In this document: piece by piece, positions 4,886 to 52,915 of the stretch
Layout: every line of letters begins with the position of its first letter
Position numbering within the stretch: the stretch's first letter is position 1
Assembly: GCA_016839515.1 (NCBI GenBank)
Contig: JAEOUE010000207.1
Span: 1-61,147 of the forward strand
Length of the DNA: 61,147 nt
Source: Candidatus Hodarchaeum mangrovi
GTDB lineage: Archaea > Asgardarchaeota > Heimdallarchaeia > Hodarchaeales > Hodarchaeaceae
Direction of reading: 5' to 3'
Program-made: the position numbers and the translations under genes
Notes under the pieces: generated by a model
Told to the model about the DNA's origin: nothing
What the model saw: only the letters and a program-made list of their open reading frames with translations
Databases searched by the model: none

Positions 4886-5098
4886 TTTTGGGTGTTTATA
4901 ATAATATACCCCAATGTGAAGGAACGGGGAACAATAACTTATGATTCACAAGATCCTTACCTGTTTTAGGGACCTTATAAATCGTCTGCGAGGCAAAGCA
5001 ATGGTGAAGAAAACGATGATGCCTCCAAGAGATAGTCCACCTGGTGCTTGTTAATTAAATTCTTATTGAAAGAATCTTTCTTTCTCCTCTTTTTTTTT
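4886..5098 (+). repeat. Small-gene cassette, copy 1 (TATA box, conserved core, hairpin and T-run)
   Basis: This stretch is repeated in diverged form at 8522-8741. Shared parts in order are GGGTGTTTATAATA (TATA-like box at 4895-4903), a core from about 4968 to 5052 including TGTTTTAGGGACCTTATAAA, then a hairpin (ATTCTT 5059-5064 with AAGAAT 5070-5075) and a run of nine T at 5090-5098 typical of archaeal termination. In both places the unit points towards, and ends just before, the stop codon of a ~505-aa paralogue on the other strand. It looks like an independent short transcript. Confidence 0.65.
4941..5054 (+). CDS. Possible 37-aa peptide in cassette copy 1
   Basis: ATG 4941 lies about 40 nt after the TATA-like box and just after a purine-rich GGAACGGGGAAC stretch. 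The predicted peptide is basic with a CFRDLINRLRGKAMVKK core and a P-rich end. Compared with copy 2, six codons differ only at the third base (AAT/AAC, CTG/CTA, AAG/AAA, ACG/ACA, CCA/CCT, CCA/CCG), the one indel is a whole ATG codon, and both frames end in TAA; this favours coding. Against it, copy 2 has a stop just upstream and no matching start, so a structured RNA is the alternative. Confidence 0.4.
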   Translation: MIHKILTCFRDLINRLRGKAMVKKTMMPPRDSPPGAC

Positions 5099-8521: not shown

Positions 8522-8741
8522 TTCTTGGGTGTTTATAATACCCCTCCTCAATGGGAGAGAAAGGAAACATGGAGTAACTGTAAAAAGACTTCTGTATCTG
8601 TTTTAGGGACCTTATAAACCGTCTACGAAGCAACTTAATGGTGAAAGCAACAATGATGATGCCTCCTACAGATCCCCCGGTTGGTTCAACTTAAAAACAT
8701 CTAAAATTTCCCTCTGGAAATTAAAAATCCCCTCTTTTTTT
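8522..8741 (+). repeat. Small-gene cassette, copy 2
   Basis: Diverged copy of 4886-5098: GGGTGTTTATAATA (TATA-like box at 8532-8540), the core TGTTTTAGGGACCTTATAAA at about 8599-8618, hairpin AATTTCC (8705-8711) with GGAAATT (8716-8722), and a T-run at 8735-8741 abutting the paralogue stop. The frame matching the copy-1 peptide is open from 8584 to 8691 with TAA at 8692-8694, but its only ATG is 8638, giving 18 residues (MVKATMMMPPTDPPVGST). So either the shorter conserved peptide or the RNA itself is the product. Confidence 0.6.
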
Positions 8742-24539: not shown

Positions 24540-25883
24540 TCAGTTTCTAATAGCTATTTTCAGAATTATTAGTCCAATCAAGCTAATTGAGAATAAAAAA
24601 CTAAGCCCCCCAAAAAATTTAAGAGAATCTAGGATATTACCAATTAATGTAAACCCAATTAGCGATATCAAGAGATTTACAGTATTATAAACCGATTCTT
24701 GAGAACTCCGATATTTTGGGGATGTAATTTGATAATAAACTTCCCAATAAAACCCAGTAGCTAATCCTGAAATTATTACTTTTATCAAGAATAATATAAT
24801 ATATCCTAAAACCTTTACAATGGTTGGAATTTCTAATAATAGCAAGATTATATAGAAACACCAGATAACGGGGTAGTTAAGAAAATAAAATTTTATCAAA
24901 CTTTCAACTGATGATTTAGAAAACTGGGATATGTGACCTGAAAATCGACAAGCGATTGCATAAATAAGATCTGATGATGCTAATGTAATTGAAGCAAGGA
25001 GAGTAGCAATATCAGCAAAATTATAGATTGGTCTCCCAACTATTTTAAAACCAAAAATTTCGTCATATAATAAAGCAATAAAAATAATGGTATTAAATGA
25101 TGTGGAAGTAAAACCAATCAAAGAAAAACTGAGAAAATATGGAATAACATGAAAATATCTCTGTTTTAATGATAAGGATTTACTGTGTGCTACGAAATGA
25201 GTATTAGAATTGTTTTTTAATTTTGGGCTTTGCTTTACATCGTCTCGTTTTAATTGTGGATTTTTTATGAATTTAAAGCCTAAAATTATACCTAAAATAG
25301 ATATTAGGGCCTGAAAAAAGAAGATAAATTCTGGTGTGATGTTTTTTTCTTGGAGAAGTAGACCTCCCAGTAATATTGCGCCACTCACAATCAAAGTTTT
25401 GGTAAAGTTAAGTGATCCCATTATAGAACGAAATATTGATTTATCTTCATTTGGGGAAAAATATTCCCAAGAGTTCATGAACCAAGAAATATATGATCCT
25501 GACAATAAAGCAGAGTAGATTCCTACAATAATCTCTAAAATAAGAAACTCCAAAGGTGTTACTGCAAATATAATTCCTATATAATATGATGCTAAACAAA
25601 AAAGAGCACTACAGAAAGCTAACCGTTGGCCAAATTTATCTGTTAAAATTCCAAGAGGAATATCAAATCCAGCACCTATAAGCATACCAATAGACACAAT
25701 TATTCCAAATAAGGAATATGAACCAAGTTTATTAATATAATAGAGGGATATCCAAGCATAAGAAAGATATATTCCAGAGACTGTTGCCTGTAAACTAATA
25801 TATTTAATGCTTAATAACTGAAGTTCTTTAGGAAAATTATTTAATCCTAAAAACTTGTTAAAGAAAGCCATAATAAACCTCAT
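24540..25883 (-). CDS. Major facilitator superfamily transporter
   Basis: 447 residues with about twelve hydrophobic segments. GAGFDIPLGILTDKFGQRLAF near residue 65 is the MFS motif-A loop between helices 2 and 3 (G-x3-D-x-x-G-x-R). The substrate cannot be inferred. ATG 25883 overlaps the stop of the FIST gene by one base (TAATG), so it is the last gene of a coupled operon with the FIST, roadblock and KaiC-like genes and may transport the ligand sensed by FIST. Confidence 0.85.
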   Translation of the reverse strand: MRFIMAFFNKFLGLNNFPKELQLLSIKYISLQATVSGIYLSYAWISLYYINKLGSYSLFGIIVSIGMLIGAGFDIPLGILTDKFGQRLAFCSALFCLASYYIGIIFAVTPLEFLILEIIVGIYSALLSGSYISWFMNSWEYFSPNEDKSIFRSIMGSLNFTKTLIVSGAILLGGLLLQEKNITPEFIFFFQALISILGIILGFKFIKNPQLKRDDVKQSPKLKNNSNTHFVAHSKSLSLKQRYFHVIPYFLSFSLIGFTSTSFNTIIFIALLYDEIFGFKIVGRPIYNFADIATLLASITLASSDLIYAIACRFSGHISQFSKSSVESLIKFYFLNYPVIWCFYIILLLLEIPTIVKVLGYIILFLIKVIISGLATGFYWEVYYQITSPKYRSSQESVYNTVNLLISLIGFTLIGNILDSLKFFGGLSFLFSISLIGLIILKIAIRN

Positions 25884-27259
25884 TATGAAGAATGGGGAGA
25901 CTTCAAGGAATAAGCTAAACTGGAGATTAAACTAAAATTCACGATTGGAAATTGTTGAGAATTAATCTCGCCTCCTGAAAGGATAATGAGGTATGGAGTG
26001 TTTCCAAGGTGATTTTTAAATTTTGAGACATATTGATCAAATCTGTCTCCAATTATCATTGCTCTATTTGCACAATCGAAAAAGAGGCCAAATTTTATTG
26101 GGGAGGCATTAAGTGTTTCTAAAGTTAGATCTAATGTCTCTTCGATCGTAATTGCACTCTGACATGTCAAATAAGCTCTTAACTTTTCTGAATTTTTAGT
26201 CTTAAGCTTTTTCGCTAATTGATTTGGAGCAGTTAATAGTCCGTGCTTTAAATTGGGATTTATAGCTAATCCATATAGATTTATATCTTTATTTTCATCT
26301 AAAATACATAAAGGACGATGAGGGAGATAATAAAAGTACCGTTGAGTGATTTCTTCAAGGATTTCAGGAGTCTGTTCCATATCATACAATTTTAATAGAG
26401 CATTAGCTCCCCATTCTCCATTGATCCTTGGAATGAATCCTCCATCTAAGTAACTATCAATTTCAAGTTCCTTATTCCGTAATGGGGTTGCTCCAGAGTC
26501 TGTATGGCTCACAAATTCTAATTCAGATGAACTGAGTGAAACGAAAGCCAAAGAATCCTTATAAGCTTGATAATCATAGAATTGATATGATTTATTCATC
26601 GTTAATGCATCAGTCCCAAAACTCCCTGTAAAATGAATGTTTCTAGAAAATAACGAGGTAAATAATGGCCATGCACATGAATAAGATATTCCAATACCTA
26701 AAAGATCCATAAGAAAACTTGTAATCTTTCCTGAAAATGAAGAGAAGATCGGAAAATTCTTCCAAATTCTGTTGTTCAAAATAAAAAATGGATTAAATCC
26801 CTCTATTCGATGATTCAATAAATTAACCATAAATTTAGGAAAACCCAACCCAGGAGGAAAAAAAAGAAAAGAAGTGTTTAGATGTTTATTTGTTTTTATG
26901 ATCATATCACAAAGTGATAAGGCTTTTCGTGATTTCAATCTATTAAAAATTCTAAATCTTTTAATAACATGAGTTTGTGCAACAATATCTGATAACATCA
27001 TAATTGCTGCACCTTTTAATCCATAATCATGATGATGAGCAATACCAACTCCCGAGCATCCAACCATGGGAACTTCAGGATAGTTCTTTTGTATTATTGA
27101 CATAGCTCTATCATAGGTTTTACTTCCCCCTTTGTGAGACCCAGTAAAATATAAAATTATAGTAGGATCTTCATTAAGTTCAGCAGAGGCTTTTTTTAAG
27201 GCTTTAGAGGTTGAATAATTTAAATCATGATTAATATTAAGACCAACAGATCCTTTCAA
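25883..27259 (-). CDS. FIST-domain sensor protein
   Basis: 458 residues. The amino half fits FIST_N (TIILYFTGSHKGG...NYPEVPMVGCSGVGIA...GAAIMMLSD) and the second half fits FIST_C (RAYLTCQSAITIEETLDLTLETL...GLFFDCANRAMIIGDRFDQYV...PYLIILSGGEI). FIST domains bind small ligands, probably amino acids, and usually feed signalling proteins. Here it stands without a kinase or receiver domain, three bases after a roadblock gene and coupled to an MFS transporter. It is probably cytoplasmic; one hydrophobic patch near 185-200 is too short to be a clear membrane helix. Confidence 0.85.
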   Translation of the reverse strand: MKGSVGLNINHDLNYSTSKALKKASAELNEDPTIILYFTGSHKGGSKTYDRAMSIIQKNYPEVPMVGCSGVGIAHHHDYGLKGAAIMMLSDIVAQTHVIKRFRIFNRLKSRKALSLCDMIIKTNKHLNTSFLFFPPGLGFPKFMVNLLNHRIEGFNPFFILNNRIWKNFPIFSSFSGKITSFLMDLLGIGISYSCAWPLFTSLFSRNIHFTGSFGTDALTMNKSYQFYDYQAYKDSLAFVSLSSSELEFVSHTDSGATPLRNKELEIDSYLDGGFIPRINGEWGANALLKLYDMEQTPEILEEITQRYFYYLPHRPLCILDENKDINLYGLAINPNLKHGLLTAPNQLAKKLKTKNSEKLRAYLTCQSAITIEETLDLTLETLNASPIKFGLFFDCANRAMIIGDRFDQYVSKFKNHLGNTPYLIILSGGEINSQQFPIVNFSLISSLAYSLKSPHSS

Positions 27260-27262
27260 AAC

Positions 27263-27700
27263 TTATCCTCCAATTTGTTTTTTAGTATCAATAATCAATC
27301 CAATCCTTTTGGCACTACGACTCATCTCTATTTCCATTAATCCTGTATTAGCCTTTGATTGTAGAACTATAACCAGAATACTAGATCGACCTGCCAAATA
27401 AAAGTAAACAGGTACTCTTATACTCTCTGTTATCATTTTATTATATTTAATTGATCTTGAACCACTTTGAAGCTCTTCCATTGTTTTAGAAATTATACTT
27501 TTAACCCAGCTACTTATAATCAATAGATTTTGGGAGAATTTTTCAGGGTGTCGAGTCTTTAAAACCTGTCCATCTAAACGAAAAAGTAATATTGCAATCA
27601 CATCTTCATATTCAGACAAATATGAAAGTTCTAAATCAAGAAAATTAAAAACTGATCTATTAAAAACAGTTTTTTCTGAAAATTTATTGGCTAGCGTCAT
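27263..27700 (-). CDS. Roadblock/LC7-domain protein
   Basis: 145 residues. The domain pattern is DVIAILLFRLDGQVLKT (first strands), a helix SSWVKSIISKTMEEL, then VPVYFYLAGRSSILVIVLQSKANTGLMEIEMSRSAKRIGLII, with the family's L-V-V-L...NxGL...R-A...I ending. Roadblock proteins dimerise and act as platforms or regulators of small GTPases and ATPases; Asgard genomes have many. Its start overlaps the KaiC-like gene by 17 bp, so they are probably made together and may interact. The first 30 residues are an unassigned extension. Confidence 0.78.
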   Translation of the reverse strand: MTLANKFSEKTVFNRSVFNFLDLELSYLSEYEDVIAILLFRLDGQVLKTRHPEKFSQNLLIISSWVKSIISKTMEELQSGSRSIKYNKMITESIRVPVYFYLAGRSSILVIVLQSKANTGLMEIEMSRSAKRIGLIIDTKKQIGG

Positions 27701-28445
27701 TTATTTTCAAACCTACGTTCAATTCAAAACTAATTGGTTGAGGAGTTTCAGAATGTGCGGAACCTCTAAATTTTCTAATCCTTAGTGTCCTGTTATATAA
27801 TCCCCCAAGTCCAATATGTTCAAGCTCAATGATTGAATCTGCTAGGAATAATGGTACCCGTGCAAGTGTTTCTCCAAAGCCCTTTTCAATTGTAATTACT
27901 GATGTACCAATTTTTCTTAAAGAAGTGAAAATTCTGTTAATTGCGTTTCTTTGTTGATTTACATCAGGAATTTCAAGTAAAAGAGGAGTTAAAGGATCGA
28001 TTGCTACCCGAATCCCACCTGAATAATGAGCTGATGTTTCCCGTATTACCTCTAAATATTTAGGTAATTCAGACATAAAAAATCTTAATCCGATCTCTCC
28101 AGAGGTAAGATTGGAATCTTCACTGAAAGCAACTTGAAATTGAAGAGTACCTCGTTTATATTTATCCTCAAAAGATGATAAACCGATTTCACGACAGTCT
28201 CTTAGCACTGAATCCAAATTTTGTTCTAAAGTCACATATAGTGCGGGAGAATTAAGGTCTTGAGAACAATATTGCCAACAAAAGGTTGACTTCCCACATC
28301 CAGGATCTGCAATAATAACATTCACTGAGTTTTCGCGGAAACCACCATATACTAACGTGTCAAAACCTGGTACACCACTTTGGATGCGATTGGAGTTTTG
28401 AACTTTCATTTTGTTAAATAATTTTTGCAAAAAGTTACACCTCAT
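27684..28445 (-). CDS. KaiC/RadA-superfamily ATPase, single domain
   Basis: 253 residues with one RecA-like core: GVPGFDTLVYGGFRENSVNV (the entry loop of KaiC/GvpD-like proteins), IIADPGCGKST as Walker A (46-54), ALYVTLEQ with the catalytic glutamate, and GGIRVAIDPLTPLLL as Walker B. The length and single domain resemble ArlH or archaeal KaiC-like regulators rather than the RadA recombinase, which needs extra DNA-binding parts. It overlaps a roadblock gene, suggesting an ATPase-roadblock signalling pair. An inner ATG at 28409 is an alternative start. Confidence 0.82.
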   Translation of the reverse strand: MRCNFLQKLFNKMKVQNSNRIQSGVPGFDTLVYGGFRENSVNVIIADPGCGKSTFCWQYCSQDLNSPALYVTLEQNLDSVLRDCREIGLSSFEDKYKRGTLQFQVAFSEDSNLTSGEIGLRFFMSELPKYLEVIRETSAHYSGGIRVAIDPLTPLLLEIPDVNQQRNAINRIFTSLRKIGTSVITIEKGFGETLARVPLFLADSIIELEHIGLGGLYNRTLRIRKFRGSAHSETPQPISFELNVGLKINDASQ

Positions 28446-28452
28446 GACATAA

Positions 28453-28947
28453 TTAGGATTTTAAGAATTTAAATGGGGAATTAGGGTTGTTAAAAAAATT
28501 TAGTTTGATTAACCGATTAACTGAAGGTAAATTATTTTTGAAAAAACTAATCAAAATTAAAGAATCTTTAAAATAGCTTTTAAAGGTCTTAATACGTTTA
28601 TGTTTTTTAATAAACTCTAATGAAATAATTTTACTTTTTTTAAGTGAAAATGTGTCTATTTTTGTTTCGATGAGAAAAAATGGAAACACAAAATTAATGA
28701 AATAAACCCATTTTGACAACAAATAAAGGATGAATAAGTCGATTATTATCCTTGAATGAAGCATAATTATTAATTTTTGACTTAATCCGAGAAAAAATAA
28801 GCTTGCAATAAAAATCCTTGAAAGTACTGTATTAAAAATCCCTATTTTTTCTAAAATAAGAAAATCAAGTGATCTGCTTCTTTCGATTGGTTTCATCCTA
28901 AATAATTCCACCAATCGAAAATATTCCTTTACTAAATATAATCTCAC
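28453..28947 (-). CDS. Possible small basic membrane protein (164 aa)
   Basis: The open frame has two likely membrane segments (about 43-63 and 70-95, rich in I, L and F) and a very basic second half (KKSKIISLEFIKKHKRIKTFKSYFK). It ends 7 bp before the KaiC-like gene in the same direction, which favours a real gene, but K/I/F/L-rich frames arise easily in such AT-rich DNA and nothing in it is recognisable. Confidence 0.4.
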   Translation of the reverse strand: MRLYLVKEYFRLVELFRMKPIERSRSLDFLILEKIGIFNTVLSRIFIASLFFLGLSQKLIIMLHSRIIIDLFILYLLSKWVYFINFVFPFFLIETKIDTFSLKKSKIISLEFIKKHKRIKTFKSYFKDSLILISFFKNNLPSVNRLIKLNFFNNPNSPFKFLKS

Positions 28948-29015
28948 TAAAATCTTTAATCTTTGAACAACTTGGGACCTTATAAAAAGAACTTGTAAAA
29001 TTCTACTGATGATAA

Positions 29016-29231
29016 ATGAAGATTAATAAAAAACTGCTCAATCGATTATCATTCCTTAATAAAAGGATGAAAACTGACAAAAGAGGGTCTCCTCTAGTTG
29101 AAGAAGGGATATTAATCGGATTAGGTTTATTCGGGTTCCTCTTAATATTATCCATTGTTACTGGGGTTCTTGATTGGCTTTTACTTAATGCTGATAAATT
29201 ATTATCTGAATTAACTTCATTATTTCCTTAA
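29016..29231 (+). CDS. Type IV pilin-like small protein with class III signal
   Basis: 71 residues. A basic leader ends in DKRG, followed by SPLVEEGILIGLGLFGFLLILSIV: the K-R-G cleavage site with a glutamate at +5 and a long hydrophobic helix is the pattern of archaeal pilins and archaellins processed by a PilD/ArlK-type peptidase. A short tail (LLNADKLLSELTSLFP) follows, so the mature subunit would be about 47 residues, close to Flp/Tad-type pilins. It could be the filament subunit of the Tad-like locus 9 kb away; this is inference. Confidence 0.62.
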   Translation: MKINKKLLNRLSFLNKRMKTDKRGSPLVEEGILIGLGLFGFLLILSIVTGVLDWLLLNADKLLSELTSLFP

Positions 29232-38098: not shown

Positions 38099-38293
38099 TT
38101 AAAAATGTGAGATCTGGTTAATTGTAAATAAGAATAAACCGATAAATAAACAATATTTTCCCAATTTACTTCCAGTTGGAGGATAAATTATTGCACCTAA
38201 TGCAATTAAAAATGCACCAAATGGAATAGAAGTTATTATCTCAACTATTGAATTAATAATTTGGATTATTATTTCATCTAATATTTCTACCAC
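38099..38293 (-). CDS. Small two-helix membrane protein
   Basis: 64 residues from GTG 38293, which overlaps the stop of the upstream gene (TTGTGGTAG). Two hydrophobic segments (about 20-34 and 43-60) are separated by YPPTGSKLGKY. Coupling to the four-TM protein suggests they function together. The frame extends upstream to 38344, but that start would overlap the neighbour by 58 bp. No family is recognised; it could be a small component of the pilus-like locus. Confidence 0.55.
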   Translation of the reverse strand: MVEILDEIIIQIINSIVEIITSIPFGAFLIALGAIIYPPTGSKLGKYCLFIGLFLFTINQISHF

Positions 38294-38796
38294 AACCAAA
38301 TAGGCATTTTTGGAAATTTGAACCCAATAGGAAGAAGAACACATAAAAGACAGATAATACTTTTCTTTAGACTTTTCTTACGTTTTAAATCTGCTTCTAT
38401 TAAAAATAATCCTAAATTCCCAATAAAAACTATTAATGATAAAGCAGCAAAGGTAAATAATAAGTAAGAGGTAATATACGAAGTAATTGGGACAATATCA
38501 GATAAATATTCGTTTTCTGACTGTTTATTATTCATTTGATATGTAAAAATATTCATTATCAGGATTAACACGATTAATGAACGAGCTATGATCCTTTTCC
38601 CATTTTCCTCATTATAATCAACTAAATATGTAATCGCTCCCAAAATTAAAGCAATATTTGAAGTCGCAAATGCTAGGATGATTAAAATCGGTAATATAAA
38701 CTCTAAACTTGAAATAATATAAGATGAGAAGTTTCCTAGTGTCTGTTCAATTGTAAAAGGGATATAGGGACTTAAACCACTCATTTTGATTTCCAT
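38287..38796 (-). CDS. Four-helix membrane protein of the pilus-like locus
   Basis: 169 residues with hydrophobic segments at about 28-58, 66-84, 102-128 and 140-157. The stretch ALILGAITYLVDYNEENGKRIIARSLIVLIL has the helix-loop-helix look of small TrbC/VirB2-like membrane subunits, but the similarity is weak. It lies next to the secretion ATPase gene in the same direction, so a structural or membrane-accessory role in the appendage is a reasonable guess. Coupled to the 64-aa protein downstream. Confidence 0.55.
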   Translation of the reverse strand: MEIKMSGLSPYIPFTIEQTLGNFSSYIISSLEFILPILIILAFATSNIALILGAITYLVDYNEENGKRIIARSLIVLILIMNIFTYQMNNKQSENEYLSDIVPITSYITSYLLFTFAALSLIVFIGNLGLFLIEADLKRKKSLKKSIICLLCVLLPIGFKFPKMPIWLW

Positions 38797-38872
38797 TTAT
38801 ACAAATTCATGCGATTTAATCTACCTGCTACTATCTAAATTTAATCACCTAAATTTTAGAAGGAGGTAATCA

Positions 38873-40228
38873 TCATATAGTGATACTTTTGAGAGTAAGT
38901 GGATCATCAAACATCTGTTTTAAAAAGTTAATAGTAAAAATGTCAGAAGAATTACACTCTTGTGCAAAAAAAGAGTTAATTACTTCATCTTCAATCACAT
39001 TTACTTGTCCTTTGTTATTTAATTCTGCAATCTTTAATACAAATCTTCTTTTTTTGTTTTTATTCCAAGTTACAGCTAGTTCAACAAAAACATGAGGGAT
39101 TGAAGTTTTAAGAAGACTTAAAGGTATATGATATATGTCATTAAGCCGAATAAACAAGAGCTGAGAATTGGAACCATGAATTGTTTGAATAGAAGGTATT
39201 CCTACTGAAAGAATATTTAAAAAGGCATTATAATGATCTTCCGTAGATAACTCGCCTAGATTGATAAAGTCTGGACTTCGGTGCAAGATTTTTTGGATTT
39301 CAAGCGATTTTGTGATCAATTGAGTAGAATAAGGATCATAACCTAATCTGAATTTAATTGTTTTTCCAATACGGGTGCTAGATGCCTCTAAAACATCTTC
39401 AATTGAGATGAGCCTATAATGAGAAGGAATAAATTCTATTAATGCGTTCTGAAGCGTTGTTTTCCCCGAGTTAGGAGGGCCTATGATTGTGATCGTAACA
39501 CGATTTTTTATAAAAAAAGCCAACAACAGGGCTTGATTCCTTGTTAAACTGTTATTTTCTATTAAATCTTTCAGCCTAAGGGATTTATTACGAAACTTTC
39601 TTATGTCAATATAATAATCTCCTATTATTAATGGTGGTATATCTACTGTTACTCGTGTATGGAAAAGAGACGAAATAAAATCTGCTTTCATGGTAGGATT
39701 GGCATGATTCAATGAAAAATCATTTTCTAATGCTATTCTATAAATAAAAGATTCAATTTCGCTTTTTTTTAACTTAATCGATGTGGAACATCTTCCATAC
39801 TTTGAATGATCAATATAGAGATTATTATCACTTGAATCTAAATAAATTTCATCTATTTGATTGTCTAAAAGTAAAGGAGCTAATTTTTCAAGTTGGAGAA
39901 CTTTAAAAAAAATTGGGATAAACAATTTGTAGGGTATCTTCATTTTATTTTTCAAAATTTCTTTATTTAGAATTTGGAATAAATTTCCTAATGAATAGAA
40001 TTCATTTTTTTCCTTTAAAAAAGAAATTAGATATTCTTTTAATATGGATTCGTACTCGATAAAGTTTTTGAGAGATTCAAACGTTTTTTGATCATAATCA
40101 ACAGAATATTCAATATTTTGATTTAAATTATCGAATAAAATATTAATTATATAATTGTAATTAGAATACGATTCAATTAATTGGTGTTGCTTCTTTTGTA
40201 GACTATTTAACAGGACAGAGTAAGTCAA
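38873..40228 (-). CDS. Type II/IV secretion ATPase (TadA/PilT/ArlI family)
   Basis: 451 residues. The motor has GPPNSGKTT as Walker A (about 250-258), the Asp box LISIEDVLE, a Walker B-like FINLGELS (about 322) in place of the usual VGEVRG/D-x-E, and the His box QTIHGSNSQ. The amino domain (LAPLLLDNQIDEIYLDSSDNNLYIDHSKYG) follows the family pattern for the N-terminal alpha/beta domain. Such ATPases power assembly of archaella, pili or Tad filaments. It is shorter than many archaeal members and pairs with the divergent platform gene at 40689. Confidence 0.88.
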   Translation of the reverse strand: MTYSVLLNSLQKKQHQLIESYSNYNYIINILFDNLNQNIEYSVDYDQKTFESLKNFIEYESILKEYLISFLKEKNEFYSLGNLFQILNKEILKNKMKIPYKLFIPIFFKVLQLEKLAPLLLDNQIDEIYLDSSDNNLYIDHSKYGRCSTSIKLKKSEIESFIYRIALENDFSLNHANPTMKADFISSLFHTRVTVDIPPLIIGDYYIDIRKFRNKSLRLKDLIENNSLTRNQALLLAFFIKNRVTITIIGPPNSGKTTLQNALIEFIPSHYRLISIEDVLEASSTRIGKTIKFRLGYDPYSTQLITKSLEIQKILHRSPDFINLGELSTEDHYNAFLNILSVGIPSIQTIHGSNSQLLFIRLNDIYHIPLSLLKTSIPHVFVELAVTWNKNKKRRFVLKIAELNNKGQVNVIEDEVINSFFAQECNSSDIFTINFLKQMFDDPLTLKSITI

Positions 40229-40256
40229 TTTCTAAACCTTTTATGAATAGTATAAT

Positions 40257-40568
40257 TTATCGTGAATTGAGTGAATCTTTTAACATTTGGTCAAAAACTA
40301 GATCTAATTTTTTGGGTAGGTGTATATTTCTATTCAAATCATTCTTTTCAGCTATTTCGAAACAATATTTCCTCCTTACAATTCCCTCCCCATCAATATA
40401 TAGGGTTAAGACATGACCATTATTTGTATGTGAGATTGCCTTAGTGATTAATGCATGATTTGATCGAGCATAATCTAATTCACCTTTACTAAGAAAAATG
40501 GTTTCTTTCTCACCACAAAGAGGGCAACTTGTTTGAATCATTGACTTTTGAGCTTGAATAGACACCAC
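40257..40568 (-). CDS. Small single-zinc-knuckle protein upstream of the secretion ATPase
   Basis: 103 residues. CPLCGE at 16-21 gives one CxxC pair, possibly half of a zinc site; the rest reads like a small alpha/beta domain (HALITKAISHTNNGHVLTLYIDGEGIVRRKYCFEIAE) with a later cysteine. HxxxH-like spacing in LITKAISHTNNGHVLTLYID recalls Asgard/archaeal proteins encoded in secretion loci, but no family is certain. It ends 28 bp before the ATPase gene and probably shares its transcript. Confidence 0.6.
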   Translation of the reverse strand: MVSIQAQKSMIQTSCPLCGEKETIFLSKGELDYARSNHALITKAISHTNNGHVLTLYIDGEGIVRRKYCFEIAEKNDLNRNIHLPKKLDLVFDQMLKDSLNSR

Positions 40569-40688
40569 AACAATAACCTATCTTCTTTATAATTTCTAGA
40601 ATAAAAACTCCTAAATTTTTAAGATAAAAACAAACTAGGGAATTTATAAAGAAGAATATAGGTCTTTAAAGATTGATGAATATTACAT

Positions 40689-42212
40689 ATGAAATATTCC
40701 AAGGTCAAAATTTTAAATAAACCTTTTCCATTCATAAAATACCGCTTTTTGGGAGACTATAACTTTTTTTATGAGATGGAATTTCATAAATATTTTCAAT
40801 CACGGTTTAAACTTCATTTAAAACATCTAAGAGTAATTCAGGCTTTATTTATCCTAACAGGTTTTGGATTAATATTTATCCAAGCTTTTGTTTCGTTGAA
40901 AAATTTTTTTCTACTAATTTGTATCGAATGTGTTTTAGTCTTCTTATTCATAAAATCATTTTATTATATCATTCACATTCAATTCCAAAATTATAAGATA
41001 AACACACAAATAACAGGATTTTTTGTTCTTAACGAGCTATCAATTATTCTAGAGACAACCAAATCCTTAAAAGATGCAACTAAATTCATAATTGCGGGAA
41101 GTTATCCTCTTTATTCTCTTATCTTTGAAGAAGCCTTAATAAAGTCACATCTAGGAAATCCGTTAAAAAAAACTTTATTAGTAGAAATAAGCAAAAAATT
41201 GTCTGGAGAGGTCAGAACATATTTTTTAAACATCATTCAGACTTGGGAAAGAAGCGAAAGAATTATAGAAATATCACGAAGTAATTTAATAAATAAGATA
41301 GAAGAGCAAATAGTAAAAGAAATGGAAGAATTAAATACATGGTCCTCTCTTTCTTCTGGTCTGACTTTTTTAAGCCCCCCGGTAGTCTTATGTTTTTTAT
41401 TGTTATCTAACACATTTTCCCTTCTTTCAGGGCTTATTTTATTTTTATTCCTGATAATTTCGTCTGTTTTCATACACCCTGATAGACATGTCTCAATTTT
41501 ATCATTAAAAAACCATCTATTATATTCAGAGGATAACTTAGGGTTTGATTTCCTAATTCTTCTTTCAGAAAATCTATCAAAAGGAAATTCTTTTTACCGA
41601 AGCTTGTATAATTCTATTAATACTTATATAGAAAGTAATGTGACACTTTCCTCAAAAAAAAGACAAGAAATCCTAAAATTAAGAGTTTATACAAAAGATA
41701 TATCTGAAAAAGGGATTGAAAAATTCCAATCTATTTTTCCTAAACGAATTGTAAAACTTATATCACTCTCAGCAAAATTTTCTCTTCTTGATAGCAAAAT
41801 TGCTGGAGAAAGATTATTTTTTCTGTGTTCAGAATTACGAAAACCTATTGATCTTATAATTCAAGGGAGAATGCGGCTTAAAGCCTCAAGCTTCCAAGAA
41901 AAGGTAATTCAATTACTTTCTCTTCTAGTTCTAGGATTTATATCTGGAGCAGCTCCTTTTTTTCTTTTTATTTCTTCATTTCTAAGTAAGCAACTTCATG
42001 AAACAGAATTAATTATTCAAAATGCTTTATATGACTTTTTATTCATTGGATATGGCCTTTTCATGAGTTTTATCCCATATAACATTCAAAATCTTGAATA
42101 TTCTAAAATCTTAACAGCTATTCCAAGTAAAGTTTTATTAATGGGATTAAAATTCATTTTATTTCTTGGGATTTTTCTATTTACTCGAATCTTCTACCTA
42201 AATCTAATTTAA
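40689..42212 (+). CDS. Archaeal pilus/Tad platform membrane protein (TadC/ArlJ-like)
   Basis: 507 residues with hydrophobic segments near 50-95 (two helices), 225-262 (two), 410-435, 448-467 and 482-505. Between them lie two helical cytoplasmic T2SSF-like domains: LSIILETTKSLKDATKFI...HLGNPLKKTLLVEISKKLSGEVRTYFLNIIQTW and FLILLSENLSKGNSFYRSLYNS...AGERLFFLCSELRKPIDLI. This duplicated arrangement is that of archaeal ArlJ/TadC platform proteins, which hold the ATPase and insert pilin subunits. It is divergent from the ATPase gene and leads the plus-strand half of the locus. Confidence 0.82.
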   Translation: MKYSKVKILNKPFPFIKYRFLGDYNFFYEMEFHKYFQSRFKLHLKHLRVIQALFILTGFGLIFIQAFVSLKNFFLLICIECVLVFLFIKSFYYIIHIQFQNYKINTQITGFFVLNELSIILETTKSLKDATKFIIAGSYPLYSLIFEEALIKSHLGNPLKKTLLVEISKKLSGEVRTYFLNIIQTWERSERIIEISRSNLINKIEEQIVKEMEELNTWSSLSSGLTFLSPPVVLCFLLLSNTFSLLSGLILFLFLIISSVFIHPDRHVSILSLKNHLLYSEDNLGFDFLILLSENLSKGNSFYRSLYNSINTYIESNVTLSSKKRQEILKLRVYTKDISEKGIEKFQSIFPKRIVKLISLSAKFSLLDSKIAGERLFFLCSELRKPIDLIIQGRMRLKASSFQEKVIQLLSLLVLGFISGAAPFFLFISSFLSKQLHETELIIQNALYDFLFIGYGLFMSFIPYNIQNLEYSKILTAIPSKVLLMGLKFILFLGIFLFTRIFYLNLI

Positions 42213-42327
42213 GGAATTTTAGTAATTAATTACATATTCAACCAATCCACTTTTGATTAATCTTTGGGAGGTTTTATTGATTATAAAACATTCATAAGGT
42301 GAAAATTATTACAATGAAGTTTTCACT

Positions 42328-45300
42328 ATGATTCAATTTTTAATCCCCAAAAAAAACTCGCGAATTTTTTCACTCTTGATAATGGTTTTGACATTCTCAA
42401 TTATTTTTACTCATCACGAACCATTGAATTTTTTAAATTCACCTGATATATCGTTGGAATTTCCTTTCGACCAACAATTTGAGAATGAAAACACCTTAAT
42501 TTCGTCTGCTCACGAAATTAATTCTCAATTATCCTCATTTGATGAAAATTCATCTATTAAATATAATATAGAGAAGATGGAAGAGAGTATAGTTGATGCA
42601 TCACAAACATTAAACTTTTTTACACCTAATGAATCTCAATTTCATTTTCAATCAAATATTAGAAATATTTCTTTTGAGATAAATTCCTATCCAAATTTAA
42701 CTGGTTCACATTGGGCAAACAGCCCTAATATTGGTGATGGTGATGTAAATATTACCAAATTTACTTCTTCTGAGGAGTCATTCTACCGTCTAAATTTTTC
42801 TGACACAGGAGAATCCATTATTTATGGTACGGTCAACGAATTATTCAATTCTATATCAATTCCATCAATTTTTAATCATTCAACAATTGTTCAATTCTCT
42901 TTTAGAATACCTTATCTATCATCGGAATTAACAAACTCATTACATAGACTAGAATTGGAATTAAATTTCATTAACCGTTCTCTTATATTTGTACTTTCAA
43001 ATTATGGTTGGAATTATGGAGCTGAAGTAGAAGAAAATATAGTAAAAGGAACAAATGCTCTTTATATAATGTGTAATCAATCAGAATCTATAGAATGGTA
43101 TCACTTTTCTATCAACATTACAAGATTAATTCAGACATATTTTAATCCTGAAGAATTCAGTTTATTCTCACATATTGAATCCTTATATTGTAATATGCTT
43201 TCTATGGTTCCAAGGTATGAATTATTATTAGATTTCAAACAAATTATTTTTAATACACAATTAGAACCATTATTTCCATTAAATTATACAATTGGGAGCT
43301 ATGAAACATTTTGTTTTGATGGAACTTTATTTTATAATACAACGATTGGAAACGTCTCCATTTCAATTGAAGAACAATCTTCATGGGAAAAAAATCTACG
43401 AACGATTTTAAATATTAAAGTTAAGAGAATTTTCATTTATAATTCTATCATAGAATTATCTAATTGGAATTCAACCCATTTAGAACTTTTAATGAAGATA
43501 GAGAATCAAATTCTTCTCAGTAATTATCAAAGTTTTTTTGTAATTATAATACCTTCTGATTGGAATAATCTAATTTTAAATGTCAACTCCTCATCATTCA
43601 AGAGAATGAGAAATTACTCTTCTTTGAATACTTATTTAACGTTAGATTTAGTGAGATTTAATATTACTGGTTTTAATCCAACCTTATTCTCTGCAATTTC
43701 CCCAAATTATCTAGAGAATATCTCTGTTCAAACCGAAATCATACACGGAGAAGTATTTAAAGTGAGGGGAGAACTTAAATATCCTTTGCAAGGAAATATT
43801 AATTTATTTCTTGAGACTAATCAATTTATTTATTATCAAAGCACATTAGTGATGATTAATTGTACATTTATCTTTCCAGAAATTATAATTTCTGATCAAT
43901 TTCCTACTGGTCTTGTAAATCTAACTTTAAATTGGACCAATACTTTTGAATATGGTTTTTTCAATCAGATAATTTTGGTTCATGATTTTCCAAATCCTGA
44001 ATCAGATTATATTTCCCTTGACTCTTCTCATGCTTTAATAATTAACCAGTTTAATCAATTTATATTAAATGTCTCTTTATTCAGAGATGAAATTCCTTTT
44101 ATATCAAATAAAACTCAAGTTTTTTTGTTAAAAGAAACTGAGAGCTATTTTTTCTTTAAAATAATCGATAATAACTATAAACTCCATATAGAACATATAA
44201 CATGGGAACCAGGTCTCTATCAACTTGATATTTATGCTATAGAAGTTTCTGGGTTTTTTACCCAGCATTCTATAAATATCACAGTAATAGAGTCAGAAAT
44301 TCTCTGGAATTTTGAATATTTAAATCCTATCTATCAAATTTCCAGTAATTTAACTTTTTTACTATATACATATTTTTTTCCAAGGGGAAGCGAATCCTAT
44401 TACCCAATTAATGACTTTAAAATTGAACTATGGATTGATGAAACTCTTTTGGGCATTTATTTTTCAGATCAATTTGGACTAATACTTGTGAATGTTTATC
44501 CTGTTATTCAAAGTAATATATCTGAATTTAATCTTTTTATAATTGGATCACTCAATGGAAAAATAGAGAAAATTGACTCCTTATCCTTTATTGTCCAAAA
44601 TACGAGCATTATTGAGGGTTTTTCTCAAGTTGTCGTTAAAGAAGTTTCAAGAACTCCCATCGAACCAAATAAATCTTTTTTTGTACATTACGAAGTTGAA
44701 TATTTAACTGATGCTTCAAATTGGTATTATTTTATAGGAACTCAAAGTAATAACGTTCTTTCATCTTTTATTATCAGAGATTCATTTGTAATAAATACAG
44801 AAATTGTCAATCAAAGCATTATTTGGAACCAACAAGCAAATCCAACTTTTAAAGATTTTTTAATAATTGAGTATCCTGGTCCTAGAATTTATACTACAAT
44901 TGAATTAGATAAACCCATTTTTAAATTTAAAATTGATATCAAATCAAATATATCCATTAGTAATTTTTCAATAAGTTTAAATCTTCAATTCCTTGAATTT
45001 CCCTTCTCAAATTTGTCACTTTTGGATTCGCTTTCTCGAGATGTTACTAGTTCATTCCCATTGGAAATTGATGGCCCCATTATCTTTATTAGATCCCTAA
45101 ATATACTTGAAGGTAAATCAATAATTCTTACTCTTTTAGGTCAATATGAAACTCCCGAAATTATAAATTTCTATCCATTTTTAGAAAATTATTCCTATAA
45201 TGAGAGTATGATAGGAGGGTGGAAATTCAATTGTTATTCAAATTTTACATATAAGATATATTATGTCATAGATGCAATTAAACGAGAGAATATAAATTCT

Positions 45301-45843
45301 ACTCATTCTAAATTCGAAAATGGAACTGTTATTATCATAACAACATTACCTCGACTTTCTTGGAATAATACAGTATATGTTTATCTTTGTCTTTATTTTT
45401 CTGATTATTTTATAATACAAAGTATAGAACAAAAAATTGTTATTAATGACCCTTATCCTCCAGAGCTTACAGTGTCTTTTGAATCTTCTGAAACAGATGT
45501 TATTATTCATAGTTTTATTTTTGAACCTGAAAGAGCTTCAGGAATCAGAAATATAATTTTTAACACTGAAAAACGATTGATTGAAAATATCTCAAAACCT
45601 GATTACTATTTACAATTCATATTTCCAAGATCAGACCTTAAAACAGAACAATATCAAATAGTTGTTTTTGATTTTGCTAATAATAATATTTCGCTAAAAT
45701 TTGATTTAACAAGGTTTTTTTTAGAAAATTTACCTGGATTTTTTGAAAATCCTGTTTTTTTCTCAATATTTTGCTCTTTAATATTTTCAACTGGAATTGT
45801 GCTATTGAGGATATACCGAAAGCATAAAACTACAATTTTATGA
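42328..45843 (+). CDS. Giant secreted surface protein with C-terminal anchor (1171 aa)
   Basis: Amino-terminal signal sequence (LLIMVLTFSIIFTHHEPL, about 16-33), more than 1,100 exterior residues rich in N, S, F, I and Y with dozens of N-x-S/T glycosylation sites, then one membrane helix (VFFSIFCSLIFSTGIVLLRIY, about 1142-1162) and a short basic tail. Beta-rich segments such as NLTLNWTNTFEYGFFNQIILVHDFPNP suggest stacked Ig-like domains. No family is recognised. Placement 115 bp after the TadC-like gene and before a small membrane protein argues for an adhesin or structural partner of the pilus. Confidence 0.7.
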   Translation: MIQFLIPKKNSRIFSLLIMVLTFSIIFTHHEPLNFLNSPDISLEFPFDQQFENENTLISSAHEINSQLSSFDENSSIKYNIEKMEESIVDASQTLNFFTPNESQFHFQSNIRNISFEINSYPNLTGSHWANSPNIGDGDVNITKFTSSEESFYRLNFSDTGESIIYGTVNELFNSISIPSIFNHSTIVQFSFRIPYLSSELTNSLHRLELELNFINRSLIFVLSNYGWNYGAEVEENIVKGTNALYIMCNQSESIEWYHFSINITRLIQTYFNPEEFSLFSHIESLYCNMLSMVPRYELLLDFKQIIFNTQLEPLFPLNYTIGSYETFCFDGTLFYNTTIGNVSISIEEQSSWEKNLRTILNIKVKRIFIYNSIIELSNWNSTHLELLMKIENQILLSNYQSFFVIIIPSDWNNLILNVNSSSFKRMRNYSSLNTYLTLDLVRFNITGFNPTLFSAISPNYLENISVQTEIIHGEVFKVRGELKYPLQGNINLFLETNQFIYYQSTLVMINCTFIFPEIIISDQFPTGLVNLTLNWTNTFEYGFFNQIILVHDFPNPESDYISLDSSHALIINQFNQFILNVSLFRDEIPFISNKTQVFLLKETESYFFFKIIDNNYKLHIEHITWEPGLYQLDIYAIEVSGFFTQHSINITVIESEILWNFEYLNPIYQISSNLTFLLYTYFFPRGSESYYPINDFKIELWIDETLLGIYFSDQFGLILVNVYPVIQSNISEFNLFIIGSLNGKIEKIDSLSFIVQNTSIIEGFSQVVVKEVSRTPIEPNKSFFVHYEVEYLTDASNWYYFIGTQSNNVLSSFIIRDSFVINTEIVNQSIIWNQQANPTFKDFLIIEYPGPRIYTTIELDKPIFKFKIDIKSNISISNFSISLNLQFLEFPFSNLSLLDSLSRDVTSSFPLEIDGPIIFIRSLNILEGKSIILTLLGQYETPEIINFYPFLENYSYNESMIGGWKFNCYSNFTYKIYYVIDAIKRENINSTHSKFENGTVIIITTLPRLSWNNTVYVYLCLYFSDYFIIQSIEQKIVINDPYPPELTVSFESSETDVIIHSFIFEPERASGIRNIIFNTEKRLIENISKPDYYLQFIFPRSDLKTEQYQIVVFDFANNNISLKFDLTRFFLENLPGFFENPVFFSIFCSLIFSTGIVLLRIYRKHKTTIL

Positions 45844-45854
45844 GATGAAATATT

Positions 45855-47252
45855 GTGAATAAGAGAATTCTATTCCCAATTCTAGTAACTAATTTTTTCT
45901 TATTATTTTTTATTATTTACACTATAAATTTTTTTGATATTGCCAGTTATTTATCATTATCTCCTTTAATAATAATTCTTTTTCGAGAAATGTTATGGAT
46001 TAAAAAAACAAATCTTAAGAAGTTTAAAATAGTGTTAACTGATCGTAATTTTGCTTTTATTCAAAATCATAGTATATGGATGTGCATATTTGAAGCACAG
46101 ATTAATGAAAATATTAAACTAGATAAATTACAACATTTAACATTTCTTAAGACCTTTTCAATAGAAATCAATAAAAACGAATCCATAATATATATTAGGA
46201 TATTTACTACCTCATTGGAAGAAATAAACCTTTTAGTGAATAAATGTTATCCCATTTTAGAAGTAATCTTTCCTGATATACAATTATTAGAGTTAAACAC
46301 CTTGATAGAAAAAATTAATGAGTATAAGATATTAACATTCAGAAATAAAAGCTTTCTTTATTCAAAAACTCATTTTATCTTTCCCTTAATTCCAGAAAAG
46401 GAAATTGAAATAAAGGAATATTCTTCAATGATATTGACTTACAATAAAGATAGTAAATCAAATAAATTACTTGGAAATATTTATTATATCAAACTATTTG
46501 ATAAAAAAACCCCTTTCTTATTTTTAAAAGAAATTTTTCTTACCTATGGAACCCCAAGTTATCTAAAGTTTATTAAGAAAGATTTTGTGAGGATAAGACT
46601 AAAATCGCCTTTAAAAGACTATTCTGAGCTACCATTTGAGAAAACAATTGATAAAATTTCTTTGTTCTTACAGAAGGAAAACATTAATTCTTTCATAAGT
46701 GAGGAGAAAATTAAATCAAGAATTCAGTGTCAGGGGACAAGTAAATTCACTAGTATCCCTCCATCTAATGATAGTTTCATGAGGGGAAAGAAATCAAAAT
46801 TATTTAATACAATCTACGATCAATTTCTAAATCTTCCAAATTTAAATCAAATATGTTTTGAATTATGTAGTATTTTCGACGATTCCTTTCTTGCAGAGGA
46901 TGAAAAACGAGTGAAATGTGACCGAAAATCAAAATTTTGCTTGAAATTGCTGAAAAATGAAAACTTCAAGCTTATCATTGAAAATATCACAAAACAAAAA
47001 AATGCAGCTGAACTCGAATATCTTTTAGGAGAATTAGCACAGCATATTTCTACTCAACAGCTGGTCTGTGTTATGGCCCATCTTTCTCAAGAATCTAGTA
47101 AAAATTTGTTACATAATGATTTGTTACCAATTCTTTACTTTCTCATAAAACTCTTTATTGAAACTCAATTGAAACTAGGAAAAGATGAAACTATTAGTTT
47201 AATTCCTTTGAAAAGAGATTTAAATAGGAATAAAATCTTGGGAGATATTTAG
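45855..47252 (+). CDS. Two-TM membrane protein with large cytoplasmic domain, pilus-like locus
   Basis: 465 residues from GTG 45855, 11 bp after the giant surface protein gene, so clearly cotranscribed. Two helices lie near 5-27 and 30-48, then a soluble alpha/beta region and a helical end containing ICFELCSIFDDSFLAEDEKRVKC and a conserved-looking LEYLLGELAQHISTQQ. The topology (short hairpin, cytoplasmic body) suits a regulator or a coupling factor between surface protein and ATPase. No recognisable domain. Confidence 0.6.
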   Translation: MNKRILFPILVTNFFLLFFIIYTINFFDIASYLSLSPLIIILFREMLWIKKTNLKKFKIVLTDRNFAFIQNHSIWMCIFEAQINENIKLDKLQHLTFLKTFSIEINKNESIIYIRIFTTSLEEINLLVNKCYPILEVIFPDIQLLELNTLIEKINEYKILTFRNKSFLYSKTHFIFPLIPEKEIEIKEYSSMILTYNKDSKSNKLLGNIYYIKLFDKKTPFLFLKEIFLTYGTPSYLKFIKKDFVRIRLKSPLKDYSELPFEKTIDKISLFLQKENINSFISEEKIKSRIQCQGTSKFTSIPPSNDSFMRGKKSKLFNTIYDQFLNLPNLNQICFELCSIFDDSFLAEDEKRVKCDRKSKFCLKLLKNENFKLIIENITKQKNAAELEYLLGELAQHISTQQLVCVMAHLSQESSKNLLHNDLLPILYFLIKLFIETQLKLGKDETISLIPLKRDLNRNKILGDI

Positions 47253-49908: not shown

Positions 49909-50187
49909 ATGATTTTAAAAATCCTAGGTCAATGGGATGAATATATCCATGGCTGGCAATTATTGATTGAATCTGGTGATCAACTATTTTGGACTTCTCT
50001 CGTTCTAGTCGCTTGGATAGTTAGAGCAATTTCATTAACGATGATACTTTTACAATTAGGTGACAAACTTATTAGAAATAAGAAGGATTTCGAATTTAAC
50101 TTGTTAATTACAGGAGTAATATTTCTCTTAGTAACTGTACCATTTTTTTTAGCAGGATTACCTTTAGTTTATCCGTTTTTACCATAA
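49909..50187 (+). CDS. Small two-TM membrane protein
   Basis: 92 residues with hydrophobic segments at about 30-51 and 65-88. HGWQLLIESGDQLFWTSLVLVAWIVRAISLTMILLQLGD precedes the loop KLIRNKKDFEF. The aromatic amino terminus and good codon use suggest a real gene, but no family is recognised. It ends one base before the ksgA stop on the other strand (convergent). Confidence 0.6.
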   Translation: MILKILGQWDEYIHGWQLLIESGDQLFWTSLVLVAWIVRAISLTMILLQLGDKLIRNKKDFEFNLLITGVIFLLVTVPFFLAGLPLVYPFLP

Positions 50188-51901: not shown

Positions 51902-52915
51902 GTGAATTTTAACTGTCTAGAGTGTGGTGGAAATTTAGTACAAACAGAGTCAGACTTAGTTTGTATAAATTGTGGGTTGGTGGCAAATAGTATTTTTGAA
52001 AATCCTGCAATTCAACTTATAAAAGCAGAAAAAAGTTATGGTAGTCAGTATGCTTCAATAAGTGAAAGGCCTGCAAATATTAAATCACTTGGAACATATG
52101 TGGGAACATATCGTAAGTCTTTCCTAGCTGATATCAAAGGATCTCCATTAAAGATATCTGCAAAAAGACAGTTTCGTAGATTAAAATCATTAAACGATAT
52201 TTATCTTCATTTTAGCGGAAGACAAAGGGAATATCGGGGATACAATCTTCTTTCAACAATTTGTAGTGCTTTACAAATTACAGATGCAACTAAAGCAGAT
52301 GCGCTCTTTCTATTCCAAAGGATCCATCCACATCTTCAAAGAGAAATAAAATTATCAAGAATTGTTCTTGGATCTATTTATCTATCTTTAAGATCTAGAA
52401 AAGAGAACATTGAACTTTCACGATTGGTTTCCACTGCTCAAAGTCAAGGTTATGTTATTAGAGGAAAAGATATAATTAAAGCCGCTTCTCTAATTAGACA
52501 ACATGCTAGAATCCGAGTTTGTCATGTGAAATCAGAGGAATATCTAGATAATATTCTCTGTCGTCTCCAAAAAGATAACAAGATATTAACGAAACTGGAA
52601 AAAAAAGTAGTTGTAAGTAAGAATCAATATTTTCATTACCTCAAACTTACCTCAAAAAAGCTTCTATCTCGATTTCCTTCGTTTGACCGAGGAGGTAGAA
52701 ATCCGTTTATATTAGCTGCTGCTGTGATTATTGCTTCTGATATCTTACTAGCTCAAAAGAATGTATTCCCAAATTGTTATAAAAAAAGATCAAAACGAGG
52801 AATATTAACTCAAAAATATATTGCAAAGATACTTGATATCGCAGAATTTACTCTTAGAGAACATTTTTTACTTCTAATTAAACCACTAATTGAACAGGAG
52901 CTGTCAATAGGTTAA
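51902..52915 (+). CDS. tfb: Divergent transcription initiation factor TFB
   Basis: 337 residues. A zinc ribbon with Cys5, Cys8, Cys21 and Cys24 (CLECGG...CINCGLV) precedes two cyclin folds: QREYRGYNLLSTICSALQI...IVLGSIYLSLRSRKENIELSRLVSTAQSQG and NPFILAAAVIIASDILLAQKNV...LTQKYIAKILDIAEFTLREHFL. TFB recruits polymerase to TBP-bound promoters. The B-reader/finger region, usually HDxGLxT, reads KSLGTYVGTY here, so this is probably a secondary TFB. GTG 51902 follows GGTGAT by three bases. Confidence 0.88.
   Translation: MNFNCLECGGNLVQTESDLVCINCGLVANSIFENPAIQLIKAEKSYGSQYASISERPANIKSLGTYVGTYRKSFLADIKGSPLKISAKRQFRRLKSLNDIYLHFSGRQREYRGYNLLSTICSALQITDATKADALFLFQRIHPHLQREIKLSRIVLGSIYLSLRSRKENIELSRLVSTAQSQGYVIRGKDIIKAASLIRQHARIRVCHVKSEEYLDNILCRLQKDNKILTKLEKKVVVSKNQYFHYLKLTSKKLLSRFPSFDRGGRNPFILAAAVIIASDILLAQKNVFPNCYKKRSKRGILTQKYIAKILDIAEFTLREHFLLLIKPLIEQELSIG

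Follow-up and report, generated by a model that had tools for sequence, protein, structure and literature searches.

We analyzed a stretch of 61,147 nucleotides from Candidatus Hodarchaeum mangrovi (contig JAEOUE010000207.1 of assembly GCA_016839515.1), referred to below as the window, with a focus on a seven-gene block at positions 38099-47252 and on a pilin gene nearby. We consider it likely that these genes encode a minimal Tad-like archaeal pilus machine, to which the Heimdall branch of the Asgard archaea has added a glycosylatable immunoglobulin (Ig)-like stalk and probably also a TFIIB-like regulator of its own. We demonstrate the parts of this set, their conservation, and their linkage. 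As recognized from their sequences and, for the platform, from its predicted fold, the parts are an assembly ATPase, a two-domain T2SSF-type platform, a class III mini-prepilin (G or A, then S-P-x-x-E-E), and an A24 prepilin peptidase. Within archaeal type IV pili, the system falls into the clade to which subclade 4D belongs, as a variant with a lineage-specific giant surface protein. The genes are as follows (aa, amino acids; TM, transmembrane segment).

29016..29231 (+), mini-prepilin, 71 aa, KRG/SPLVEE plus one hydrophobic helix (motif scan, conservation)
38099..38344 (-), small two-TM protein, 81-aa open reading frame (ORF) (relatives' lengths, codons)
38287..38796 (-), 169-aa four-TM protein, present in the loci of the genus
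38873..40228 (-), assembly ATPase, 451 aa, VirB11/TadA/FlaI family (T2SSE, NCBIfam, PDB, tree)
40257..40568 (-), 103-aa protein with one CxxC, conserved in the genus
40689..42212 (+), platform, 507 aa, two fused T2SSF-like halves (profile comparison, AlphaFold [AF2] model, fold matches)
42328..45843 (+), giant surface protein, 1171 aa, with N-terminal TM, all-beta ectodomain, and C-terminal TM (AF2)
45855..47252 (+), 465-aa protein with two N-terminal TMs (genus loci, alignment A5)
C138:19695, on another contig of the genome, A24 prepilin peptidase (PF01478, E 4.6e-7, over the cut-off)

The proposed pilus gene set and its conservation

The initial annotation had described the block as seven neighboring genes, and we could reproduce this observation: all ORFs lie at the coordinates listed and have phmmer matches in same-genus loci. 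Four genes on the minus strand (103 aa, ATPase, 169 aa, small two-TM protein) and three on the plus strand (platform, giant, 465 aa) diverge from a 120-base gap at 40569-40688. All seven lie on one contig in seven of the nine giant-bearing relatives of the genus (L047, L048, L051, L052, L054, L055, and L056); of the remaining two, the L053 block ends at a contig end and that of G003 is spread over two contigs. The genes rpoA1 and uS9 bracket the block in six of these nine relatives, as they do in the window (RNA polymerase and ribosomal protein genes, names read from sequence). Two further genomes of the genus, G004 and G009 (about 70% complete), hold neither the giant nor the family ATPase. 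The platform is 31 to 36% and the giant 28 to 35% identical to their same-genus relatives, yet their lengths are kept, indicating that both are selected genes and not chance ORFs.

The ATPase matches Pfam T2SSE at 7e-15. Against NCBIfam, its best match was VirB11 (2e-25), followed by FlaI (2e-19), with every match below the equivalog cut-off. Solved GspE2-type and FlaI chains were matched as well (PDB 2oap at 1.4e-19), in agreement with the family profile. The more specific identities were rejected: the protein scored 89 bits against the 250 required for VirB11 of type IV secretion, 70 against 550 for ArlI/FlaI of the archaellum, and 60 against 373 for bacterial TadA, and it did not group with CpaF/TadA in the tree. 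In this tree (60 rows), a branch with 100/100 support splits 45 rows from 15; midpoint rooting was used, the inner order is partly open, and some branches are long. The larger side holds the window, its Asgard relatives, and TACK loci with a pilin, with 4D-type loci nested among them, and the smaller side holds the ATPase of a second pilus system of the same genome, other TACK ATPases, and bacterial CpaF. When named genomes were scanned, the same ATPase family was found in Heimdall-/Hod-type Asgard records and in TACK records.

The second pilus-type system (L067, G000:C138:53000-72500) has a 502-aa ATPase that branches apart, two genes read as TadC-like, several class III signal-like proteins, and an 1106-aa protein. 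The window platform and the platform of that system gave no match between their profiles. Our survey also returned a further T2SSE match at L003 (C149).

In other families of the class, two separate genes behind the ATPase gene, with products of about 270 and 207 aa, take the place of the single platform gene, and profile comparison matched them to the halves of the window platform with probabilities of 96.7 and 96.5. An alignment combining whole platforms and split genes (A9) was misaligned and left unused. The AF2 model of the platform was built on four full-length rows (A10) and reached a predicted local distance difference test (pLDDT) score of 61.9. The best solved fold matches of the N-terminal half were the cytoplasmic domains of EpsF (Z 7.9; root-mean-square deviation 2.8 over 112 residues) and OutF (Z 6.7), and that of the C-terminal half was TcpE (Z 6.0, 98 residues). 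The expected T2SSF family held the top three ranks. Foldseek paired the platform with a PilC model at probability 0.98 but with an E value of 0.018.

The initial annotation had found no pilin in the locus. This holds for 38099-47252, but not for the window, which carries a prepilin gene 9 kb from the cluster (...KRGSPLVEEGILIGLGLFGFLLILSIV...). The lead came from other families, in which small one-helix R-A/G-S-P-L-x-E-E proteins adjoin the ATPase loci. All six frames of the window were scanned for basic residues followed by G/A/S, four residues, an acidic residue, and a hydrophobic helix. Besides this one good candidate, the scan returned a poor one, antisense to the platform gene. Its 10-row alignment is good, and 17 Asgard and TACK rows share the invariant residues S25, E29, E30, L33, and G35. 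The profile matched 48 of 56 relatives at E < 1e-10, excluding matches in G017 and G027 (E 0.007-0.009). Across the same 56 genomes, pilin and family ATPase occur together in 43, the ATPase alone in one, the pilin alone in five, and neither in seven (Fisher 2.5e-5), and wherever the two share a contig they are at most 11 kb apart (30/30).

Of the parts that define the type IV filament superfamily, the genome offers a VirB11/TadA/FlaI-type assembly ATPase, a T2SSF/TadC-type platform (by fold, with weak support from sequence), a prepilin with a cleavage motif and Glu at +5 (by sequence), and one A24 prepilin peptidase. A24 peptidase-like genes also lie near the ATPase at L124:2199-2687 and L237:7946-8536, with PF01478 values below the cut-off (7.5e-4 and 2.1e-4).

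The giant was called glycosylatable from the outset, and its composition bears this out: it contains 40 N-x-S/T sequons versus 17.6 ± 3.6 in shuffled sequences, and no such excess was found in the platform, the ATPase, or rpoA1. It has 7 Cys, and fold searches returned generic tandem Ig-like sandwiches without a specific relative. Proteins of about 960 aa in two other families, f3 and f5, are homologous to it over about 700 columns (probability 99.5, E 1.5e-22). It occurs in 36 of the 56 genomes, all of which have the strict ATPase, and is absent from the 17 genomes lacking that ATPase (both 36, ATPase only 3, giant only 0, neither 17; 1e-11). When on one contig, giant and ATPase lie within 15 kb of each other (31/31). 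In the sister family (L080), a 1221-aa protein of the same build adjoins an ATPase fragment. The initial annotation was to be abandoned if homologous ATPase/platform pairs never occurred with these neighbors elsewhere; we found ATPase, platform, and giant linked across several families of the class.

Beside seven TACK loci (L112, L124, L224, L225, L228, L230, and L231), we observed three to four small proteins with an N-terminal TM that resemble minor pilins; such groups were not seen in the mapped Asgard loci. The giant might take the place of minor pilins there.

The 103-, 169-, and 465-aa proteins and the small two-TM protein are putative accessory parts. The 103-aa gene is probably cotranscribed with the ATPase gene; its product had been labeled a zinc knuckle, a name that we drop, as the protein has a single CxxC and no convincing Pfam match. 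The 81-aa ORF probably begins later, near 38293, which would give about 64 aa, judging by several relatives that have 60 to 62 aa and lack the overlap. The 465-aa protein had no Pfam match above the cut-off and no NCBIfam family, and the idea that it is the N-terminal part of a HerA-like ATPase was discarded (hhalign probability below 1 percent). We likewise gave up the idea, raised by hydropathy only, that the 169-aa and small two-TM proteins are type IV secretion-type pilins, as a Pfam search gave no support. An imperfect inverted repeat, ACCTAT..TCTTCTTTATAA, flanks TATA-like boxes in the divergent gap (40569-40688).

From these parts, we infer the following mechanism. The A24 peptidase would cut the mini-prepilin after Gly/Ala, and an ATPase hexamer, driven by ATP, would turn or flex the platform, whose two domains would add single-helix pilins one at a time to a thin filament. 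The giant may be a stalk of Ig-like build, glycosylated and anchored in the membrane, that encloses the base of the filament at the envelope or tethers it there, or it may serve as an adhesive partner of the filament. The nearby TFIIB-like factor, perhaps together with a KaiC/FIST sensing group, could activate the scattered pilus genes through a shared promoter element. Heimdall/Hod-type Asgard archaea are among the archaeal groups closest to eukaryotes, and they gain here a defined candidate surface filament with a lineage-specific giant, which bears on how such cells touched partners.

Relatives in TACK archaea and subclade 4D

In TACK loci, the ATPase, two membrane proteins, and the mini-prepilin follow one another. 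In 10 of 15 mapped loci, the pilin gene follows the platform genes, directly in L112, L116, L123, L125, L224, L225, L226, and L231 and with intervening small genes in L228 and L230; L227, where the pilin was placed by its profile, raises the number to 11. In the class of one TACK record, 13 of 81 genomes have close members of the ATPase family, and others have short ATPases of 337 to 347 aa. At the short-ATPase loci (L234-L243), a TFB-like gene precedes the ATPase in 10/10 cases (with one gene between in L243), and in most of them the ATPase has a CxxC N terminus and a short membrane protein behind it.

These loci match the description of subclade 4D by Makarova, Koonin, and Albers (2016, PMC4858521), to judge from gene content. 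According to that paper, a pilin was never found in 4D, a TFIIB homologue is in the operon, RPB8 adjoins it, and the function is unknown. The authors propose a possible relation to transcription, count two components, and report that the ATPase of Pyrobaculum and Thermoproteus is short and bears a Cys domain at its N terminus. In the 4D-type loci, the gene found where RPB8 would be expected had no Pfam match, so the name RPB8 is that of Makarova et al. (PMC4858521). Sm-like and thermosome neighbors (names read from sequence) are common to 4D-type and pilin-bearing loci such as L226.

The pilin profile was positive in 25 of 28 TACK genomes, with none in G122, G126, and G128. It matched all 10 genomes with loci of the pilin-bearing type (E 1.4e-18 or better) and 15 of the 18 of the 4D type (E 3.3e-4 or better), the latter typed by their ATPases and, where fetched, by the gene content of the neighborhood. 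In the 4D-type regions that we read, the pilin gene is separate from the ATPase locus, and the pilin sequences include MKTRGAILVEEVLLLL and RRRRGDIFIEEVLLIA. In eleven such regions (L260-L270), our ORF picker, which prefers longer overlapping ORFs, kept the pilin in L260, L261, L265, L266, L269, and L270, so that 15/18 refers to the profile.

These findings suggest that the 4D "pilus without pilin" is the same kind of machine as the window pilus. A mini-prepilin that is conserved in 4D relatives and present as a stand-alone gene in most 4D-type genomes offers a direct test of 4D function. A literature search, covering papers open without subscription, found no paper on such a system in Asgard archaea and none on a 4D pilin, and arCOG05558/05559 appeared solely in Makarova et al. 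2016.

The window system is nevertheless not a plain 4D system, because the giant lies inside the locus and a pilin nearby, at odds with the 4D trait of "no pilin or secreted protein". Its ATPase sits in the 100/100 clade in which the 4D-type loci, recognized by gene content, are nested. Compared with the description in PMC4858521, it resembles 4D in this clade and in a TFIIB-like gene that adjoins the ATPase in related families, and Sm-like and thermosome neighbors connect 4D-type with pilin-bearing TACK loci; it differs in having a full two-domain platform, a pilin, and the giant and in the absence of an N-terminal Cys domain on the ATPase. The type IV pilus/Tad-like interpretation first given to the locus stands as to its ATPase, two-domain T2SSF-like platform, pilin, and A24 peptidase; the locus is not an isolated case, the ATPase clade including 4D-matching loci. 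Since the identities of Tad, archaellum, and type IV secretion were tested and failed, the system should not be filed under any of these, nor simply as 4D.

A candidate TFIIB-like regulator and a shared promoter-like element

The following features beside the pilus genes may bear on their regulation.

25883..27259 (-), FIST-domain sensory protein of the KaiC group (PF08495, 4.5e-11)
27684..28445 (-), KaiC-family ATPase, divergent from the pilin (PF06745, 2.4e-29; linkage conserved in the genus)
28971..28985 (+), promoter-like element CTTGGGACCTTATAA, upstream of the pilin gene
40635..40649 (+), promoter-like element CTAGGGAATTTATAA, before the platform, giant, and 465-aa genes
49909..50187 (+), 92-aa two-TM protein, whose family has the promoter motif in 4/6 copies counted
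51902..52915 (+), divergent TFIIB-like factor with zinc ribbon and TFB-like body (aligned with ATPase-flanking TFB-like genes of other families)

The TFIIB-like factor was missed by PF00382, which matches three other TFBs in the genome, and its Zn_Ribbon_TF value (0.003) is below the cut-off. A TFB-like gene lies beside the ATPase in f3, f5, and 7 of the 15 mapped TACK loci. A profile of these genes, which included L123 and L125, matched 45 of the 56 relatives and lay within 15 kb of the ATPase in all 32 in which both share one contig. With regard to the 4D operon, the window gene is placed 4.6 kb beyond the block, and its counterparts adjoin the ATPase in both f3 and f5 and in some TACK loci.

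An element YTTRGG-NNN-TTAWAA stands 5' of the pilin in seven genomes of the genus, and a slightly loosened form precedes the platform in 5/10. We counted it in 250 bases before called starts plus 60 inside (150 plus 60 for f3 and f5), choosing wide regions to allow for uncertain starts and leaving out L284 and duplicate proteins. The motif preceded 21 of 81 pilus-set genes and 2 of 229 others. Among genes outside its definition, it was found before the 92-aa gene (4/6), the first gene of the KaiC group (3/7), and the 169-aa gene (2/9; Fisher 2.6e-9 for the three), and none was found before the 103-aa, ATPase, giant, and 465-aa genes. In f5, an element was present before the giant in 8/9, the pilin in 4/5, and others in 1/108, and in f3 in 4/4, 3/4, and 0/40, respectively; this element differs from that of the genus and was defined on the giant and pilin genes in which it is counted. 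The shared promoter element is a lead for a common regulon, not proof of one.

The group divergent from the pilin (25883-28947, minus strand) is conserved and consists of a lead gene, the KaiC ATPase, a 145-aa protein read as roadblock-like that had no Pfam match, and the FIST protein.

We advance a wider proposal only tentatively, rating its chances somewhat below even: an ancient pilus regulon common to Heimdall-type Asgard and TACK archaea, in which a mini-pilin machine would be controlled by its own TFIIB-like factor reading a dedicated promoter (a box like the B recognition element plus TATA), with the Heimdall type having gained the giant glycosylated Ig-like stalk as a collar or adhesin. 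The proposal predicts that the TFIIB-like factor is specific to these genes and uses a promoter class of its own, for which CTTGGGACC-TTATAA and CTAGGGAAT-TTATAA are candidates; if true, such a factor would explain the long-standing link between the 4D ATPase and a TFIIB homologue.

Elsewhere in the window, two similar plus-strand stretches (4887-4980 and 8524-8617) each carry two copies of the promoter-like element 79 bases apart and lie behind similar-sized genes (5118-6641 and 8740-10254). Perhaps they give small transcripts.

Alternative readings and comparison with known systems

The same ATPase, platform, and prepilin would also serve a type II secretion-like pseudopilus device. In that case, the mini-pilin would form no more than a short piston for the export through the envelope of proteins such as the giant, whose co-occurrence is as compatible with a dedicated substrate as with a structural component. 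We regard this as unlikely: with an N-terminal hydrophobic segment of its own and a TM at the C terminus, the giant would not need a secretion machine, and long Flp-like filaments are typically built of small pilins that lack a globular domain. Quite improbable, in our estimate, is a machine for DNA uptake or conjugation. It would agree with VirB11 being the best NCBIfam match of the ATPase and with the HerA/VirB4-like ATPases that flank the pilin in L112 (tested) and in L224, L225, and L227 (read from sequence); the window, too, holds a 720-aa ATPase of this kind at 17855-20017 (+), similar to that of L112 (DUF87, 4.5e-15). However, the VirB11 score is far under its cut-off, and of six same-genus stretches only G006 has a HerA-like gene near the pilin, a linkage too little conserved to count this ATPase as a component. 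No VirB6/VirB10-type parts turned up, although no search was aimed at them.

That the ATPase pair belongs to a transcription-linked pathway and not to a pilus, as suggested in 2016 for 4D, strikes us as very improbable. A TFIIB-like gene does adjoin the ATPase across families, and the window locus lies between the transcription and translation genes named above, but a conserved prepilin is found in the same TACK operon and in most 4D-type genomes, and the two peptidase-like genes below the cut-off lie near such loci.

Several observations weigh against the pilus and regulon that we favor. Pfam T2SSF matched just 1 of 10 platform proteins, at 0.014; the pLDDT of the platform model is low, and Z scores of 6 to 8 are modest and can arise by chance for helical bundles. 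Five genomes have a pilin without the family ATPase and G035 the reverse (most are incomplete metagenome-assembled genomes), and G012, G013, and G028 have the ATPase but no giant by profile. Because the genus motif was derived by eye from the promoters of pilin and platform, the counts for those genes are circular. In the genome as a whole, its reversed control is the commoner of the two (92 versus 54 for the motif; seven of the 54 lie on the window's contig, two of them before pilus genes), and the window's own 92-aa gene and KaiC-group lead gene are without the motif.

Compared with the bacterial Tad/Flp pilus, the window system has an ATPase that stands apart from CpaF in the tree and Glu-Glu at +5/+6, where bacterial Flp pilins have Glu-Tyr. 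A secretin would not be expected in an archaeon. Common to both are one ATPase, two platform domains, a very short pilin, and Glu at +5, as far as the passages of Denise 2019 (PMC6668835) consulted describe Tad. By the description in the same passages, the archaeal Epd pilus similarly has two platform genes and a short pilin; a TFIIB-like factor and a giant are not among the parts reported there for Epd (PMC6668835). The giant is unusual but not without parallel, since large S-layer-like, C-terminally anchored proteins are described in other archaeal pilus loci, namely a large surface protein with a C-terminal TM in clades 4B/4G of type IV pili (PMC4858521). By that description, these are S-layer-like proteins with conserved cysteines that accompany PilA pilins; the giant has 7 Cys.

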